A stretch of 12,077 nucleotides of DNA from Candidatus Auribacterota bacterium. GTDB taxonomy: Bacteria; Auribacterota; JAFGBW01. How positions within the stretch are numbered: position 1 is the first letter of the stretch; every line of letters begins with the position of its first letter. A program made the translations under genes and the position numbers. The stretch lies in the NCBI GenBank assembly GCA_016932965.1, contig JAFGBW010000253.1:1-12077 (forward strand). The letters run 5' to 3'. Shown one piece after another: positions 1 through 7,540 of this stretch. The notes beneath the pieces were generated by a model. That model worked only from the letters and a program-made list of their open reading frames with translations. It had not been told where the DNA came from and made no database searches.

Positions 1-858
1 TTGAAGACAGGCGAAAAATATCCCTGCAGCGAATGGCTGTATCTGATACTCATGCAATATAAAGAATCCCCCGGTGACAAGAACGGCAAGAAAGGAAGCG
101 AAGAGAGTATCACCGTCATGACGCTGAACATGGCCCATGCCCGGAAGGGGACTTCCAACGGGACGACAAACAAAAAAAACAGAATCGAGAACAATTTAAA
201 CCATATCGTGAAAGTGATCACGCATGAACATCCGCTGGTCGTTGCTTTACAGGAAGCCGACGGGGAAACGTATCGTCCGGATAATTTCAATCAGGTCGAG
301 TTCATTTCCGAAAAGGCGAAATACCCGTATATCGAAACGGGTTATCATGTCATTAAAAAGAATTTTGTATACGGTACGGCCCTTCTATCTTTATATCCTT
401 TATCCCATACCGAAATGACCACATTCCTTCCTTCTCCGCCGACTCCTTTAAAAGGTTTTGTCGTGTCGAGAATGAAATGGCCTTTTCCTTCATGGAACAA
501 GGAAGTGGACGTTATCAGCCTTCATCTGGATTTTCTCAGAAAACACGTCCGGATGAAACAGGTGGAACAGATCATTCAAAAATTGAAAACCAGAGGGAAA
601 CCCCTGATCGTGATGGGTGATTTCAACTGCGAACCGGATATCAGGGAAAACACCCTGCAATATTTTTGCGAGAATCTGAATCTGAAAATGTATAATCCCT
701 ATTCGGTGGAGCTGGTGACGTTCCAATTATTCAAAAAACGGCTGGACTGGATTCTGATTTCACCGGATTTCGAATTCAAGTCCTATCGGGTATTGAAAGA
801 TAAGATATCCGACCATTCCGGGGTGATCGCCGAAATTGCCGTCCGAAAACAATCGTGA
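1..858 (+). CDS. Endonuclease/exonuclease/phosphatase (EEP) family protein, probably 5'-partial
   Basis: This looks like a metal-dependent phosphodiesterase or nuclease of the EEP superfamily (DNase I, sphingomyelinase, ExoIII fold). Visible motifs, numbered from the TTG at position 1: TLNMAHA with Asn43, LQEAD with metal-binding Glu85, SLHLD with His175, MGDFN with Asp207 and Asn209, LDWI with Asp249, and the C-terminal SDH with catalytic Asp271-His272. All core residues are present, so it should be active. The start is uncertain. A TTG sits at the window edge, with in-frame ATGs at 52 and 118. Starting at 118 would cut into the first core beta-strand, and no good Shine-Dalgarno precedes either ATG, so the gene probably begins at or before the edge. 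No clear signal peptide is seen. The substrate (DNA, phospholipid or phosphoinositide) cannot be told. The next gene lies about 565 bp away across repeats, so no operon link is implied. Confidence 0.85.
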   Translation: MKTGEKYPCSEWLYLILMQYKESPGDKNGKKGSEESITVMTLNMAHARKGTSNGTTNKKNRIENNLNHIVKVITHEHPLVVALQEADGETYRPDNFNQVEFISEKAKYPYIETGYHVIKKNFVYGTALLSLYPLSHTEMTTFLPSPPTPLKGFVVSRMKWPFPSWNKEVDVISLHLDFLRKHVRMKQVEQIIQKLKTRGKPLIVMGDFNCEPDIRENTLQYFCENLNLKMYNPYSVELVTFQLFKKRLDWILISPDFEFKSYRVLKDKISDHSGVIAEIAVRKQS

Positions 859-1423: not shown

Positions 1424-2893
1424 ATGAAAATTTGTTTTATTCTGGGTCAAAATGAAAGTTTAGGCATTGAATACCTATCTTCTTTTCTTAAACAAAACGG
1501 ACAAAAAGTCGACCTCTTGTTCGATCCCTGCCTTTTTAATGATTCTATCACCTCAATTCCATGGTTAGCTCAAAAATTCAGCCGAGAATCGTTCATTTTG
1601 TCTGAAATCAAAAAAATCCAACCGGATCTAATTGGTTTTCAAGTATTCACAGATACACTCCCCTGGAATATGCACCTCGCCGAATATATCAAGAAACACT
1701 ACCCTTTGATAAAAATTGTATTTGGCGGCATTCATCCGACATCCGTCCCCGAAGAAATGCTTCAACATGAATGTGTTGATTTTGTTATCCGGGGAGAAGG
1801 CGAACATGCGCTGCTTGAACTTATGCAGACCCTCTCTCAACAGAAAAATCCTGAAAACATAAAGAATCTATCCTATCGGGACAATAACAGAATCATTCAC
1901 CATACCCCCCTAAGACCGCTGATTTCAAACCTCGACACCCTTCCTTTTCCGGATAAAGAATTATTCTATACAAAAGCGCTCCCTACGAAAGGGTACAAAA
2001 TTATGACCAGTCGGGGATGTCCCTTTAACTGCAGCTACTGTTACAATCATGTGGTAAAAGAACTCTACGGATTCCCCAAAAATTTTGTAAGAAGGCGCTC
2101 TGTCAAAAATGTAATTGATGAGTTGGTTATCGCGAAAAACCGGTGGAGGACAAATAAAATATTTTTTGATGACGATATTTTTATATCCGACAAAGAGTGG
2201 CTTGAAGAATTTGTCGCAGAGTACATAGAAAAAATCACCCTTCCCAATTTCTGTTTTGTACACCCTGTCTATATTAATGAAAAAACAATTAATCTGTTAA
2301 AAAAAATGAACACACAGTTGGTTGAAATCGGCATCCAAACGATTGATCCCGAATACCGGAAAAAAATATATCAAAGACATTACTCACAGGAACAACTTAA
2401 AAAAGCCTTGCATCTCATATATCAATCGAAAATTCCCTGCATCGCTGACAATATCATTGACTACGAAACCATTACAGAAGAAGAGGCTCTCCGGATAACA
2501 CAATTTTATCTTAATGAAAAAATATGCAAAGTATACCTGTTCAATCTTCGTATCTTTCCGCATACTCAAATCGCCCATTTACTAAATAGAAAAAAGGAGC
2601 TTCCTGTCCCGAAAGAGGAACAGAACTATTTCAGCATCGTAAAAGCAAAAAGATTAAAAAATATTCAAAAAATATTTATCATGATACTATTCGGAAAAAT
2701 TTTCCCAAAACGGTTCACGCCTTATTTATTAAAAACCAGACTGTATCGCTTTTTCCCGTTATTAAACTATCATTTTTTACTTGAGCTGTTCTATGCAATC
2801 GAAATTTCATTGCGAAGAAAAGCACTATTTAACAGGGAAACCAGCTCTAAATATATTCGATATATATTGAAAAAAATTTTCCGGAGATTCTGA
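1424..2893 (+). CDS. B12-binding-domain radical SAM protein
   Basis: This is a 489-residue radical SAM enzyme with the layout of the B12-binding class. Residues 1-140 form a Rossmann-like N-domain with FGGIHPTSVPEE near 100-111 and the RGEGE signature at 123-127, both typical of this class. It lacks the DxHxxG cobalamin ligand motif, as many members do. The [4Fe-4S] motif is GCPFNCSYCYN, with Cys199, Cys203 and Cys206, preceded by a TSRGC strand. The core continues to about residue 380 (FFDDD near 247-251, EIGIQ near 301-305). The C-terminal 100 residues are basic and hydrophobic, which might favour membrane contact. The start ATG is preceded only by a weak A-rich stretch. The stop lies 2 bp before the next radical SAM gene, so the two are cotranscribed. 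The substrate is unknown; the family includes methyltransferases, cyclases and lipid-tailoring enzymes. Confidence 0.88.
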   Translation: MKICFILGQNESLGIEYLSSFLKQNGQKVDLLFDPCLFNDSITSIPWLAQKFSRESFILSEIKKIQPDLIGFQVFTDTLPWNMHLAEYIKKHYPLIKIVFGGIHPTSVPEEMLQHECVDFVIRGEGEHALLELMQTLSQQKNPENIKNLSYRDNNRIIHHTPLRPLISNLDTLPFPDKELFYTKALPTKGYKIMTSRGCPFNCSYCYNHVVKELYGFPKNFVRRRSVKNVIDELVIAKNRWRTNKIFFDDDIFISDKEWLEEFVAEYIEKITLPNFCFVHPVYINEKTINLLKKMNTQLVEIGIQTIDPEYRKKIYQRHYSQEQLKKALHLIYQSKIPCIADNIIDYETITEEEALRITQFYLNEKICKVYLFNLRIFPHTQIAHLLNRKKELPVPKEEQNYFSIVKAKRLKNIQKIFIMILFGKIFPKRFTPYLLKTRLYRFFPLLNYHFLLELFYAIEISLRRKALFNRETSSKYIRYILKKIFRRF

Positions 2894-2895
2894 CA

Positions 2896-4269
2896 ATGCC
2901 TAAAATAACAGATAAAAAAGTTATCGACCATACCCGATCGGTTTGTCCGGAATGCCTTAAACAATATGATGCTGAAATCATATCAGAACATAATCAAGCG
3001 TTTATGGTTCGCACCTGTACTACCCACGGTGTAAAAAAACATTTGGTTTCTAAAAATGCGGATGACTATGAATATTTCAGAGAATGTTATTTAATGCTGA
3101 AAAAAGACATCAACATGTCTCCCTCAAAACAGAAAGCCTATAACATTCATGTTACGGATAAATGCAATTTAAAATGTCCTATTTGCTATTCCAGGGGGCA
3201 ATCACGTCAGAAAGATATTACAATTAAAGACCTGGAGGAACACTTTCAGGGGGTAACGAACTCTCGTCTTTGCCTTTTCGGAGGAGAACCAACCATGCAT
3301 GAGCATGTTGAGGAAATCATACAATGGATTAAAAAAAACAATAATATCGCCGTGCTCTACACCAATGGCTTAAAATTGGATGATTCTGAATTCGTAAAAA
3401 AAATCAAAAACGCCGGTATCGATGAAGTGCATATTCAATTTGACGGATTTTCCGAAAACGCCTATGAAACCTTCAGAGGCAACAAAAATTTACTCCATAT
3501 AAAGCAAACCGCGATTGAGGAATGCGCCAGACAAAACCTGACCATTGTGCTGGAAGTGACCGTCAATACAAATAATATTTCTGAAATCAACAGCATATTC
3601 AATTTTGCTCTGGAAAAACCGAATATAAAAGGAGTGGTCTTTAGAACATTATGCTTAGTCGATCTCACCTCGAAATATGAGCAAAAAATCACAACCGATG
3701 ATATCATCCATACATTATCCCGGAATAAAAAGCATCCCGTCTCAGAAGAAGAGATCAATCTGTTCCAAAAGTTACTCTATAAATATTGCTTTTATTTTAA
3801 AGTACCCTTATTCGGATGTGTTCTTAACCGGTATTATCTTCTCTATAAAGATGGCAACACGACTCTTAACATCGGTGATATGTTGAATCTAAAAAAAATA
3901 AACTCTTATTTCTCAGACTTTCATCAGAATTCTCAAAAGCGGTCAAACAAATGGATAGCCGCATTTAAAACCATCTTTCACTTTTTAAACAAAAGAAATA
4001 TAAAAGTAGCCTTATTGATACTCCGAAATTTTCTCACGGAAAAATTCAACGGCCGTCACAAACATATCAAACCTGTCAGATCGTTTTTCTTCCTTGAAAT
4101 CTCAGGGCCAATGGATCAGTACAATTATGATCAAAAAATAATTGAATTATGCCCCTCCGGCGTCTATCTCGAAGAGAAGCTGCACCGGTCCTTAGGACTC
4201 GCCTACTATGACCGAAGAATGAATATTGATAAGCTGTTATTATCTCAAGAATACAGACAAAAGGATTAA
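2896..4269 (+). CDS. Radical SAM protein with N-terminal zinc-ribbon-like motif (Tes/MJ0619-like)
   Basis: This 457-residue enzyme has the cluster motif CNLKCPICYS (Cys90, Cys94, Cys97) and the SAM-binding GGEPT at 129-133, as in MoaA/PqqE-type radical SAM proteins. Ahead of the core lies TRSVCPECL...RTCTTHG with Cys17, Cys20, Cys41 and His44, a putative zinc or iron site. Such an N-terminus, together with a late MDQYNYD...LCP segment, recalls the MJ0619/tetraether-lipid-synthase (Tes) group, which forms carbon-carbon bonds between lipid chains. This is resemblance by eye, and the protein is somewhat short for that group. It begins 2 bp after the upstream radical SAM stop, with GGAG at 2883-2886 nine bases before the ATG, inside the end of the previous gene. 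Tight coupling suggests both enzymes act on one substrate. A peptide-modifying role is also possible, but no precursor peptide was seen. Confidence 0.85.
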   Translation: MPKITDKKVIDHTRSVCPECLKQYDAEIISEHNQAFMVRTCTTHGVKKHLVSKNADDYEYFRECYLMLKKDINMSPSKQKAYNIHVTDKCNLKCPICYSRGQSRQKDITIKDLEEHFQGVTNSRLCLFGGEPTMHEHVEEIIQWIKKNNNIAVLYTNGLKLDDSEFVKKIKNAGIDEVHIQFDGFSENAYETFRGNKNLLHIKQTAIEECARQNLTIVLEVTVNTNNISEINSIFNFALEKPNIKGVVFRTLCLVDLTSKYEQKITTDDIIHTLSRNKKHPVSEEEINLFQKLLYKYCFYFKVPLFGCVLNRYYLLYKDGNTTLNIGDMLNLKKINSYFSDFHQNSQKRSNKWIAAFKTIFHFLNKRNIKVALLILRNFLTEKFNGRHKHIKPVRSFFFLEISGPMDQYNYDQKIIELCPSGVYLEEKLHRSLGLAYYDRRMNIDKLLLSQEYRQKD

Positions 4270-4332: not shown

Positions 4333-4473
4333 TCAGGCGTCATCCAGATGAATGCCGGGCCTTGCCTGAATTCCATCCAGAATCCGGTGAGCTGTTTCGA
4401 TTATTTCCTCCCGTGAGGGCCCGAATCGTTTAGACCACTCGGAGGATTTGGCCTGAAACCGGTCAAAAAAAAA
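4333..4473 (-). other. Frameshifted 3' tail of the kinase-like gene
   Basis: After the homopolymer of nine A on the plus strand (T9 in the coding sense, 4465-4473), the original frame hits TGA at once (4463-4465). If one T is skipped, the frame continues for 43 more codons, beginning D-R-F-Q-A-K-S-S-E-W and ending I-H-L-D-D-A before a TGA at 4333-4335. The tail is helical and charged, with no rare stop, and reads as a natural C-terminus. The intact protein would be about 405 residues. Causes could be sequencing or assembly error, a recent inactivating indel, or transcriptional slippage. Confidence 0.7.
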
Positions 4474-5551
4474 CGCGTGCTTCAACAGGTCCCAGCGCCC
4501 CGATAACTCCCAGAACCAGACTTTCAGTCTCATAACGGTAAATATCCTGCCCGCCTTCGGCCATAAAGCCGTCTTCCCCTAATTGTTCAGGAGACAGTCC
4601 GGCATTAATGATCAGATTGTAAATCAGAGCGTCTTCATCAAAGGCCATTGCCCAGTTCCTTAAATCATACAAATTCATTTTTGCAGACGGGATGGAGACC
4701 GGCTCTCCGGATTCAGGGTCGGCTTTTATATCATAAATCCCCATATCTAAAATATCTCCACGTGGGTGAACCAGGCCTTTATCAATGAGATGGGCTTCAT
4801 AGTCTCCTTCCGGTGTTCTCCTTAAAACAAACTGATTTTTGTAAGCATCAAAAATAAAAAAACCTCCCGGTTTCTTCCAGATACGGACAGATTCTCTTAT
4901 GACAGCGGCCTGGGCTTTTCTGTCTTCTTTGAGAATGTTGAAGGAAATCCATTCTGAAGGATCAAAAAAGGGTTCCGTCAGCACAAAACGAACTTGCTCC
5001 GGATCATGGTTTGCAGGAATGGCTCCGAAAAAACCTTTTGGTTCGCCTGTCAAATCGTTCAGGATCACTGTCGTGACTTCATGGAGAACCGCATAGTAGT
5101 CGCTCTTAAATTTTTTGGTCATTTTAAGAGCAAAAGAATAAGGGGTGTCTTCTGTTCTGAGCCTTACCGTCACCCTGTAAACATTTCTGTATTTGCTTTT
5201 ATCTCCCGTTTTTTCAATTTCGACTCCTGCAATGTCTTCTTTTTGAAAAGAAACCGGGAAAAAACTGTTCAACGTATGGGGGAGCAGCTGACTCCGGTTG
5301 AATAACCGGATGATATGTAAACGGTCCTGTTCCGAAAGCTCTGATCTTTCAAAATCAAACTTGTCAGGGGTTATGATATCAGAATGGCTTTTCGGTGCCA
5401 GATTGTCTGACAGATGCTTCTGTTGATAAGACAAGTCTCTTTTTTCTTCTGAACAGTAAAGATGACCGGATACCCCTGTTAACATGTCAAAGGACTGTAA
5501 CAGAAATACAAAACAAAACATTCTGAACAACCGAAATCTGATAATAATCAT
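4463..5551 (-). CDS. Exported kinase-like protein of unknown function, frame broken near 3' end
   Basis: The 362-residue product has no family I can name with certainty. Residues 1-30 look like a signal peptide (R5, R7, R10, then the hydrophobic MFCFVFLLQSF, with a possible cut near VSG). From about residue 105 to 300 the pattern recalls a divergent protein-kinase or aminoglycoside-phosphotransferase fold: FALK with Lys143, HEV with Glu158 as helix-C acid, a hinge-like RFVLTEPF near 188-195, FFIFDAYKNQF with Asp235 as catalytic-loop acid and Asn239, then HLIDKGL with Asp257 in the DFG position. Asn239 is one residue closer to the Asp than usual, so this is tentative. A second conserved-looking block, ALIYNLIINAGLSPEQLG, follows. 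The frame breaks at a nine-base run, and a 43-codon tail continues in another frame. It is convergent with the radical SAM operon. No Shine-Dalgarno is seen at the ATG, which lies 6 bp after a good -10 box. Confidence 0.65.
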   Translation of the reverse strand: MIIIRFRLFRMFCFVFLLQSFDMLTGVSGHLYCSEEKRDLSYQQKHLSDNLAPKSHSDIITPDKFDFERSELSEQDRLHIIRLFNRSQLLPHTLNSFFPVSFQKEDIAGVEIEKTGDKSKYRNVYRVTVRLRTEDTPYSFALKMTKKFKSDYYAVLHEVTTVILNDLTGEPKGFFGAIPANHDPEQVRFVLTEPFFDPSEWISFNILKEDRKAQAAVIRESVRIWKKPGGFFIFDAYKNQFVLRRTPEGDYEAHLIDKGLVHPRGDILDMGIYDIKADPESGEPVSIPSAKMNLYDLRNWAMAFDEDALIYNLIINAGLSPEQLGEDGFMAEGGQDIYRYETESLVLGVIGALGPVEARVFF

Positions 5552-5556
5552 GCATA

Positions 5557-5583
5557 ATTATACCAGATATAAAAAAAAGTCAA
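5557..5583 (-). promoter_or_regulatory. Extended -10 promoter giving a near-leaderless mRNA
   Basis: On the minus strand, TTGACT (5578-5583) is followed after 15 bp by TATAAT (5557-5562), with TGG directly before it as an extended -10. The spacer is short, but the extended -10 can compensate. The ATG of the kinase-like gene begins 6 bases after TATAAT, so the expected transcript start falls on or next to the start codon. That fits the absence of a ribosome binding site. Confidence 0.6.
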
Positions 5584-5632
5584 TGTACGAAGGTGTTCCG
5601 GGGGCAGGATATTATCACCACGGAGAGGGGAA

Positions 5633-5718
5633 GAAGGAATTGAGAATTTAGAATTAAGAATTGAGAATGGAAACTTGAAGCCAGGAGGGCAAAGAGGGAC
5701 CGACGTAGTCGCTCGTAA
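5633..5718 (+). repeat. 86-bp direct repeat, copy 2
   Basis: Identical to 881-966 in the same orientation. Here it continues into gagcaagggcagggtggccgtagtc, which copy 1 lacks, and it is preceded by caccacggagaggggaa. This shows the two copies sit in slightly different composite repeat contexts. Confidence 0.95.
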
Positions 5719-5776
5719 GAGCAAGGGCAGGGTGGCCGTAGTCCAATTAAGAATTATGAATTGAGAATTAAATACT

Positions 5777-5795
5777 CCCGCAGAGGCGCAGGGGC
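5777..5795 (+). repeat. GCAGAGGCGCAGG dispersed motif
   Basis: The 19-mer cccgcagaggcgcaggggc here occurs as an exact reverse complement at 8873-8891. Its inner 13-mer cgcagaggcgcag also occurs directly at 862-874. All three are intergenic. Confidence 0.9.
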
Positions 5796-5944
5796 GCGGA
5801 GAAAAAGGAAATTGTTTTTGACCGGATCATCGGTTGGGCCGGAAAAAATAGGCGAGGGAGGGACCAGTGTAAACAGTGAAATAACGGTCAATTTCAAGGG
5901 ATTCAGTTCCGGCTTATCGTCTGCAGGTCATGAAAGTCAGCTGG

Positions 5945-7540
5945 CTATTTTGCTCCGGCTTTTTTAAGAATTTTAACAAATTTTTTATTGTACTTTTTTG
6001 CAAGAGACAGGCAATTAAAACCCCGTTTATTTTTTATATTCAGATCAGCCCCTCTTTCAATTAATAATTTCAAGACTTCTAAATGCCCTTTGTTTACTGC
6101 ATTCATTGCAGCAGTAAAACCATAAGAATTTTGAATATCGAGTTTTGCCCCGTTATTTATCAGAAGCTCGGCGATATCAGAAAAACCGTAAGCAGCGGCT
6201 GCCATTAAGGGCGTCCACCCGCCGCTTTTGAATTGATTTACATCATATCCTTTTTTCAGCATTGATTCCACGATTTCATAATAACCCTGTTTAATAGCGG
6301 AATTCATTATATCTGTAGTAAAATCAGATCCTGCATTAATTAATAGTTTTGCTATTGAAGGCAAATATCGATCAAGAGAAACCTTGAGAAGAGTAGAGCC
6401 TTCCAGGTCTTTTTCATTAATAAGATCATTTTTTATCTCCAGTAATTTCTTGATTATAGGAATATTATTTTTTCTTATTGCATGAAATAAGGCATTCCTG
6501 CCCTTGTTATCCTTTGAGTCAATTTCAGCACCTTTACTCAACAGAAAATCCAGACATTTACTTCGTCCAAATTCAGAAGCAGCCATTAAAGGAGTATAAC
6601 CGTTGTAATCCTTACCGTTCACATCCACACCTTTTTCAACAAGTTCGTAAACTTTTTCAATTTGACCGAAAATGATTGCTGTCATAAATGTGATGAAATC
6701 ATTTTTCTTTTTAAAATCATGCCTGCCGATATTTCCATGTATCGGATAAACAACGTTATAACTTGCCCGCCATTTGGGCACTTTAATCTCAGAGTTAAGT
6801 TCATATACCTCACCCTTTATTGCATTTATCTTTAAATCAAGTGCCTCTCCCTTCATGTTAATAGCTTCAAGTTCCAGAGTTAAAGTATTTAAACCAGGCT
6901 GAATTTCATGCTCGATAAGTTTGTCGTTAACTTTTATACCGTTGATTTGTTTTACACGAATAATGTCAATTCTTTTCCTGAAAGGAGATATCACAAGAGG
7001 ATTATCAAGTATGAGATGTACTCCGAATTGATGCATCATATCGACAATTTTAGGGTTTGAATATTGCAGAGCTTTTTTTAACGCATAACTTCTCTCATTT
7101 TCATCTATGACCGGAAGAAGTAAACTCACTGCATCGTAATTATCTTCGCGTATTGCATTAACTATTATTGAATATCCCTTTGAATCTTTAATTGTCGGAT
7201 CAGCCCCTTTATCGAGCAAATACTTCACCATATAGACATCATTCCCGGATGCTTTATATAATGCAGTTTCTCCATCCTTATTTCGTTCATCAATATTTAC
7301 CCCTTTTTCAAGCAAATATAATATTAACTCCGGGAAGTCATTCCACATCGCACACATAAGTAATGTATTTCCGTATTTATCTTTAAAATCAACAGGACCC
7401 TTTTCTATTTTCTCCTTAACGGCTTCAAAGTCCCGTTCCCTGATAAGTTTAAATATTTCATCACTTTTTTTTGAAGAATATACGCAGGTAGAAATCACGG
7501 ATAATAATAGTACCATAGCTAATCTCATAAATTTTTTCAT
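5945..7540 (-). CDS. Exported ankyrin-repeat protein with PEGA-like insert
   Basis: This 531-residue protein is probably periplasmic or surface-attached and binds other proteins through ankyrin repeats. Residues 1-22 are a signal peptide (K2, K3, R6, then a hydrophobic run). Cys19 follows I-S-T, a poor lipobox, so lipoprotein status is doubtful. A first ankyrin block covers about 25-175 (YGNTLLMCAMW, DGETALYKASGN, KGYSIIVNA). Residues 184-262 are different: a beta-rich segment with INGIKVNDK, EIQPGLNTLTLELEA and KGEVYEL, reminiscent of PEGA-type domains. A second ankyrin block covers about 280-531 (YNGYTPLMAASEFG, GWTPLMAAAAYG, YGFTAAMNAVNKG, RGFNCLSLAKKY). The start is well supported by AAGGAG at 7546-7551, five bases before the ATG. 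It appears to be a single-gene transcription unit, with a MITE-like element just upstream. Its binding partner is unknown. Confidence 0.85.
   Translation of the reverse strand: MKKFMRLAMVLLLSVISTCVYSSKKSDEIFKLIRERDFEAVKEKIEKGPVDFKDKYGNTLLMCAMWNDFPELILYLLEKGVNIDERNKDGETALYKASGNDVYMVKYLLDKGADPTIKDSKGYSIIVNAIREDNYDAVSLLLPVIDENERSYALKKALQYSNPKIVDMMHQFGVHLILDNPLVISPFRKRIDIIRVKQINGIKVNDKLIEHEIQPGLNTLTLELEAINMKGEALDLKINAIKGEVYELNSEIKVPKWRASYNVVYPIHGNIGRHDFKKKNDFITFMTAIIFGQIEKVYELVEKGVDVNGKDYNGYTPLMAASEFGRSKCLDFLLSKGAEIDSKDNKGRNALFHAIRKNNIPIIKKLLEIKNDLINEKDLEGSTLLKVSLDRYLPSIAKLLINAGSDFTTDIMNSAIKQGYYEIVESMLKKGYDVNQFKSGGWTPLMAAAAYGFSDIAELLINNGAKLDIQNSYGFTAAMNAVNKGHLEVLKLLIERGADLNIKNKRGFNCLSLAKKYNKKFVKILKKAGAK

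Follow-up and report, generated by a model that had tools for sequence, protein, structure and literature searches.

Tetraether synthase, the radical SAM (seleno)protein TrsS and the cobalamin-dependent radical SAM enzymes are the closest described counterparts of the two genes considered here. Tetraether synthase (Tes, or GDGT-MAS; MJ0619, structures 7TOL and 7TOM, profile NF045702) stores its substrate radical as a carbon-sulfur bond on a C-terminal auxiliary iron-sulfur cluster, and its rubredoxin site reads C9X2C12X20C33X2H36 (PMC9433317). The MJ0619 metal ligands to which we compare our sequences are those given in that structure paper. In class 1 cobalamin-dependent radical SAM enzymes, the cobalamin domain is N-terminal (PMC13331322). 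The window, by which we mean the whole stretch of DNA analyzed, is the complete contig C39, 12,077 bases long; it belongs to a draft genome of 3.14 Mb from a small bacterial phylum, of which 44 genomes were available for comparison. It carries two adjoining genes on the plus strand: g1 (1424-2893), which encodes a cobalamin-binding radical SAM enzyme of 489 aa, and g2 (2896-4269), which encodes a Tes/TrsS-superfamily radical SAM enzyme of 457 aa.

A preliminary description of this DNA had reported two unlike radical SAM genes separated by 2 bp and cotranscribed, and both the ORFs and their domains are confirmed. The TGA stop codon of g1 (2891-2893) is followed by CA and then by the ATG of g2 at 2896, and a GGAG Shine-Dalgarno sequence for g2 (2883-2886, plus strand) is embedded in the end of g1. 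Judged by these signals, g1 and g2 look coupled in translation and are probably cotranscribed, in agreement with the earlier claim. The description was also correct that no precursor peptide lies alongside: the gaps flanking the pair hold no precursor-like or credible small ORF. An Rfam search of the window found neither a cobalamin riboswitch nor any other family.

The g1 protein has the class 1 layout. A Pfam B12-binding domain (PF02310) spans residues 11-133 (1454-1822, plus strand), with 65.8 bits against a cutoff of 32.1 and an E-value of 4e-18, and a Radical_SAM domain (PF04055; 6e-17) spans residues 195-359, with a CX3CX2C cluster motif at C199, C203 and C206 (2018-2041, plus strand). 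Cobalamin binding is predicted from this arrangement. The best NCBIfam profiles are HpnJ, BchE and the ladderane-associated rSAM_ladder_B12 (TIGR03471, TIGR02026 and TIGR04072), which likewise join an N-terminal cobalamin-binding domain to a radical SAM core. The scores of g1, about 93-106 bits, are well under the cutoffs of 360-578, so the functions of these families are not transferable to it. Within the phylum, its nearest relatives share 33-36% identity. Its C-terminal part (residues 380-489) is basic, with a pI of 10.7.

For g2, the Pfam search recovered an N-terminal Zn_ribbon_HMPTM domain (PF23545, 8.8e-14) followed by Radical_SAM (PF04055, 1.7e-14); the HMPTM in the name of the zinc-ribbon family denotes the function proposed earlier for MJ0619. 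The best curated profile was TrsS (NF045646), at 164.6 bits over residues 12-286 against a cutoff of 490, and the second best was Tes, at 125.3 bits against a cutoff of 450; because both scores fall under the NCBI thresholds, g2 is assigned to neither family. The protein is similar in length to TrsS. The selenoprotein reading that the name TrsS suggests is disfavored by the open frame of g2 and by its score under the TrsS cutoff. Among solved structures, the best match by sequence was tetraether synthase 7TOL (E 6.9e-32), and identity to Tes is 23-24%. An AlphaFold2 model of g2 (pLDDT 77.5, pTM 0.81) matched 7TOM with a Z score of 32.9 over 410 residues, the next family being MoaA at 19.3. Because the alignment used for this model included tetraether synthases, the modeling was repeated without any Tes-clade row, and the match was equally good (7TOL, Z 34.3 over 411 residues). 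The structural comparison with MJ0619/Tes that the preliminary description had proposed thus returned Z scores of 33-34 over about 410 residues, MoaA being the next-best fold family in the g2 searches at 19-20. Both models are of low confidence in the C-terminal half (pLDDT about 45-85), so that any lipid pocket modeled there is tentative in shape; residues 320-400 in this half are basic, with a pI of 11.2. By sequence, profile and predicted fold, g2 is a true homologue within the tetraether synthase/TrsS superfamily.

The metal ligands of g2 are partly kept and partly lost. The earlier reading of this protein as Tes-like had drawn on Cys17, Cys20, Cys41 and His44 and on an MDQYNYD...LCP end. 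The positions are right: the rubredoxin or zinc-ribbon site C17-X2-C20-X20-C41-X2-H44 (2944-3027, plus strand) matches the MJ0619 spacing exactly, and MDQYNYD (residues 406-412) and LCP (418-420) align with the C-terminal cluster region of Tes, where an MDxYNxD region is shared. The radical SAM CX3CX2C cluster (C90, C94 and C97; 3163-3186, plus strand) is common to both proteins as well, and alignment columns and fold search place that of g2 in a partial TIM barrel. At the columns of the N-terminal auxiliary [4Fe-4S] ligands (C73, C77, C80 and a His in Tes), g2 has C, I, S and K. Two of the three Cys of the C-terminal auxiliary cluster are present, C308 in an invariant column, Ca (3817-3819, plus strand), and C419 (4150-4152, plus strand); the third, in IPFC of Tes, is replaced by Ala/Leu. 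The labile Met439 is absent, with Ser at its column, and the column of Tes Tyr459 is Val. Three residues past the Met439 column lies M406, which is followed by D407 (4111-4116, plus strand) and whose column is Cys in the three nearest relatives (L170, L171 and L174). In two TrsS rows (L034 and L039), unlike in g2, the N-terminal cluster motif is intact and none of the three C-terminal-cluster Cys is lost. The Tes-like label is supported for superfamily membership but not for tetraether-synthase function, for which the N-terminal auxiliary ligands, one Cys of the catalytic auxiliary cluster, the Met and the Tyr are missing. We consider g2, from these alignment columns, probably to be a divergent Tes relative with another function.

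A tree of 60 superfamily members places g2 in a six-member clade (SH-aLRT 99), together with proteins from genomes G384, G357 and G231 and more distant ones from G030 and G024; the branch of g2 is long, and its exact position inside the clade is weakly supported (87). All six members are without the N-terminal cluster motif. The clade-mates, at about 29% identity to g2 or less, keep the C308 and C419 columns or nearly so; three of them have Cys in place of M406, and none adjoins a B12 radical SAM gene. Close members are rare: when 386 genomes from around G384 were sampled, a profile of four of them gave strong matches in three, the same ones that already contributed to the profile. Among the matches listed, relatives of g2 reach at most about 31% identity across long alignments. 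Viral contigs yielded partial g2 relatives only, at 23-33% identity, and no g1 relative. Elsewhere in the superfamily, a Tes/TrsS-like group shows the reverse of the g2 pattern, with the N-terminal cluster motif kept and Cys ligands of the C-terminal cluster lost (L042, L043, L046, L047, L051, L059, L064, L067, L068, L070 and L096). The hosts of this group belong mostly to aerobic genera (Pedobacter, Neobacillus, Bradyrhizobium and others).

The explanation we prefer, tentatively and with somewhat less than even confidence, is that the two genes make up an operon for the sequential radical tailoring of one hydrophobic, membrane-associated molecule, be it a lipid or an envelope precursor linked to a lipid. 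Because g2 keeps the Tes fold, the rubredoxin site and the radical SAM cluster, it would be expected to make a 5'-deoxyadenosyl radical and to attack a C-H bond. Since the N-terminal cluster is gone and the catalytic C-terminal one is incomplete, the sulfur-carbon joining of alkyl ends carried out by tetraether synthase would not be expected. More likely is either a step with a single radical (desaturation, ring closure or addition) or the use of a rewired auxiliary cluster on C308, C419 and perhaps M406. The g1 enzyme, for its part, would introduce a methyl group or create a ring or a C-C bond. A lipid substrate is plausible, and the suggestion comes mainly from the fold of g2 and from the genes found beside other couples of this superfamily, rather than from the window itself. 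The coupling signals, the match to 7TOL, the fold scores and the ligand columns count in favor of this explanation, as do the lipid and tetrapyrrole enzymes behind the best g1 profiles, the basic C-terminal parts of both proteins and the lipid-linked couples described below. Counted against it are the lack of any lipid-synthesis gene beside the pair on the contig, the unconserved pairing, the glycosyltransferases and methyltransferases around g1 relatives, and the weakly modeled C-terminal half of g2. It is tempting to speculate further that g2 represents a separate Tes-fold subfamily that has dispensed with the N-terminal cluster and remodeled its catalytic counterpart, with C308, C419 and M406 replacing three Cys and Met439, and that builds an undescribed bacterial lipid together with its cobalamin radical SAM partner; this extended version we regard as quite unlikely.

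The neighborhoods of related genes could point to a different class of substrate. Around the relatives of g1 (n=34 neighbors), six genes match glycosyltransferase family 2 and six match a methyltransferase domain, and a sugar aminotransferase, an epimerase and a UDP-sugar dehydrogenase are also found. In G231, a g2-like gene overlaps another radical SAM gene in a cluster that also holds a DegT/StrS aminotransferase and, within a few kilobases, several B12 radical SAM genes. The pair may thus tailor a surface sugar or glycan, for example by methylation, dehydration or rearrangement, instead of an alkyl chain. This alternative is rather unlikely: B12 radical SAM genes are so common in such clusters that the association says little here, the window holds no glycosyltransferase or sugar gene, and the predicted fold of g2 is that of a lipid enzyme. 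It is also conceivable that g1 and g2 share a transcript through chance gene order and perform unrelated jobs. Of 94 loci with g2 relatives, not one shows a B12 radical SAM gene directly alongside, the examined loci of g1 relatives hold no g2-like gene, and the two other genomes of the order contain no close relative of either gene. With those counts, and with the B12 radical SAM genes of G231 lying kilobases away from the g2-like gene and not next to it, we reject conserved pairing on current data. The preliminary description had allowed that a pair never co-occurring elsewhere would speak against its reading, and the pair occurs nowhere else in the collections searched, which comes close to that outcome. 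The absence is nevertheless soft evidence, because the closest g2 relatives listed share about 31% identity or less, too distant for non-conservation to mean much. Overlapping translation signals and an equal base composition of the two genes also argue against chance order, which we consider improbable.

Two further possibilities fare worse. That g2 is a true tetraether synthase, making membrane-spanning lipids by the MJ0619 mechanism, would fit the homology in sequence and fold and the identical rubredoxin spacing, but it is very unlikely, since g2 has neither the N-terminal cluster motif nor the labile Met439 and Tyr459, lacks one C-terminal-cluster Cys, and scores 125 bits against the curated cutoff of 450. 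Radical SAM couples are also common in RiPP loci, and g2 bears a weak similarity to SkfB and other maturases, confined to the core domain. However, maturation of a ribosomal peptide by this pair hardly seems probable: neither gap offers a precursor, the Pfam search gave no SPASM or peptide-binding domain match, and peptide maturases are not among its best relatives, whether judged by sequence or by fold. The preliminary description had named clustering of g2 with a peptide-maturase family as the finding that would overturn its reading, and this is not what we observed. As a natural relative with the Tes fold and a stripped or altered set of clusters, g2 would reveal which parts of tetraether-synthase chemistry are dispensable. 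It would also counsel caution against naming every bacterial Tes homologue a membrane-spanning-lipid gene, a risk in environmental surveys based on homology.

Couples of Tes-like genes that are better conserved do occur beside lipid genes elsewhere. At five loci (L026 8506-11521, L027 7500-10518, L031 3-2925, L032 6303-9321 and L079 589-3787), two unlike Tes-like radical SAM genes overlap and are followed directly by a lipid A acyltransferase gene (60-100% alike). Their hosts are four genomes from one family of the window's phylum and one Verrucomicrobiia genome. The arrangement suggests acyl-chain chemistry on lipid A. In a Muiribacteriota MAG (L077 2742-10641), a Tes-like couple (4593-7407) lies inside a fatty-acid synthesis cluster with an acyl carrier protein, a reductase, a FabA-like protein and a ketoacyl synthase.

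Besides the pair, the contig carries genes for an ankyrin protein and a kinase, one of the endonuclease/phosphatase family, and an orphan ORF. The contig end interrupts the gene at 1-858, whose beginning lies in contig C252, the last 261 bases of which overlap window positions 1-261 at 97.7%. The orphan ORF (4463-5551, minus strand, 362 aa) has no Pfam match and no relative in the other 43 genomes of the phylum that were searched.

The preliminary description also took the pair to be more A+T rich than its neighbors and suggested transfer. The G+C content of g1 and g2 is 36%, against a mean of 43% over 124 genes of the same genome, which places the pair at the 10th percentile of a biased reference (204 kb from contigs picked through radical SAM matches). 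The claim of A+T richness is right only in part: the ankyrin gene (5945-7540) is lower still at 34% G+C, and the codon usage of g2 is ordinary (56th percentile). No phage match was found. As an argument for recent horizontal transfer, then, composition is weak, and with a G+C content at the 10th percentile only, transfer of the pair is weakly supported.

Upstream of the pair, a dispersed, intergenic palindromic repeat (860-1160) contains inverted repeats and has 64 match places in its own genome, a point in favor of the contig being part of that genome. A 97-base stretch of it recurs at 5621-5718 with 97% identity and in the same orientation, so that like-oriented copies flank the pair together with ORF 4463-5551. 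These flanking copies are compatible with past movement of the pair, though they do not demonstrate it. An apparently truncated and probably degraded copy of the g1 family is present elsewhere in the same genome (L022 13584-13922, G000:C169, minus strand), with 45% identity over 109 residues. It adjoins a UbiA prenyltransferase gene and another radical SAM gene, in surroundings that are A+T-rich and dense in radical SAM genes.
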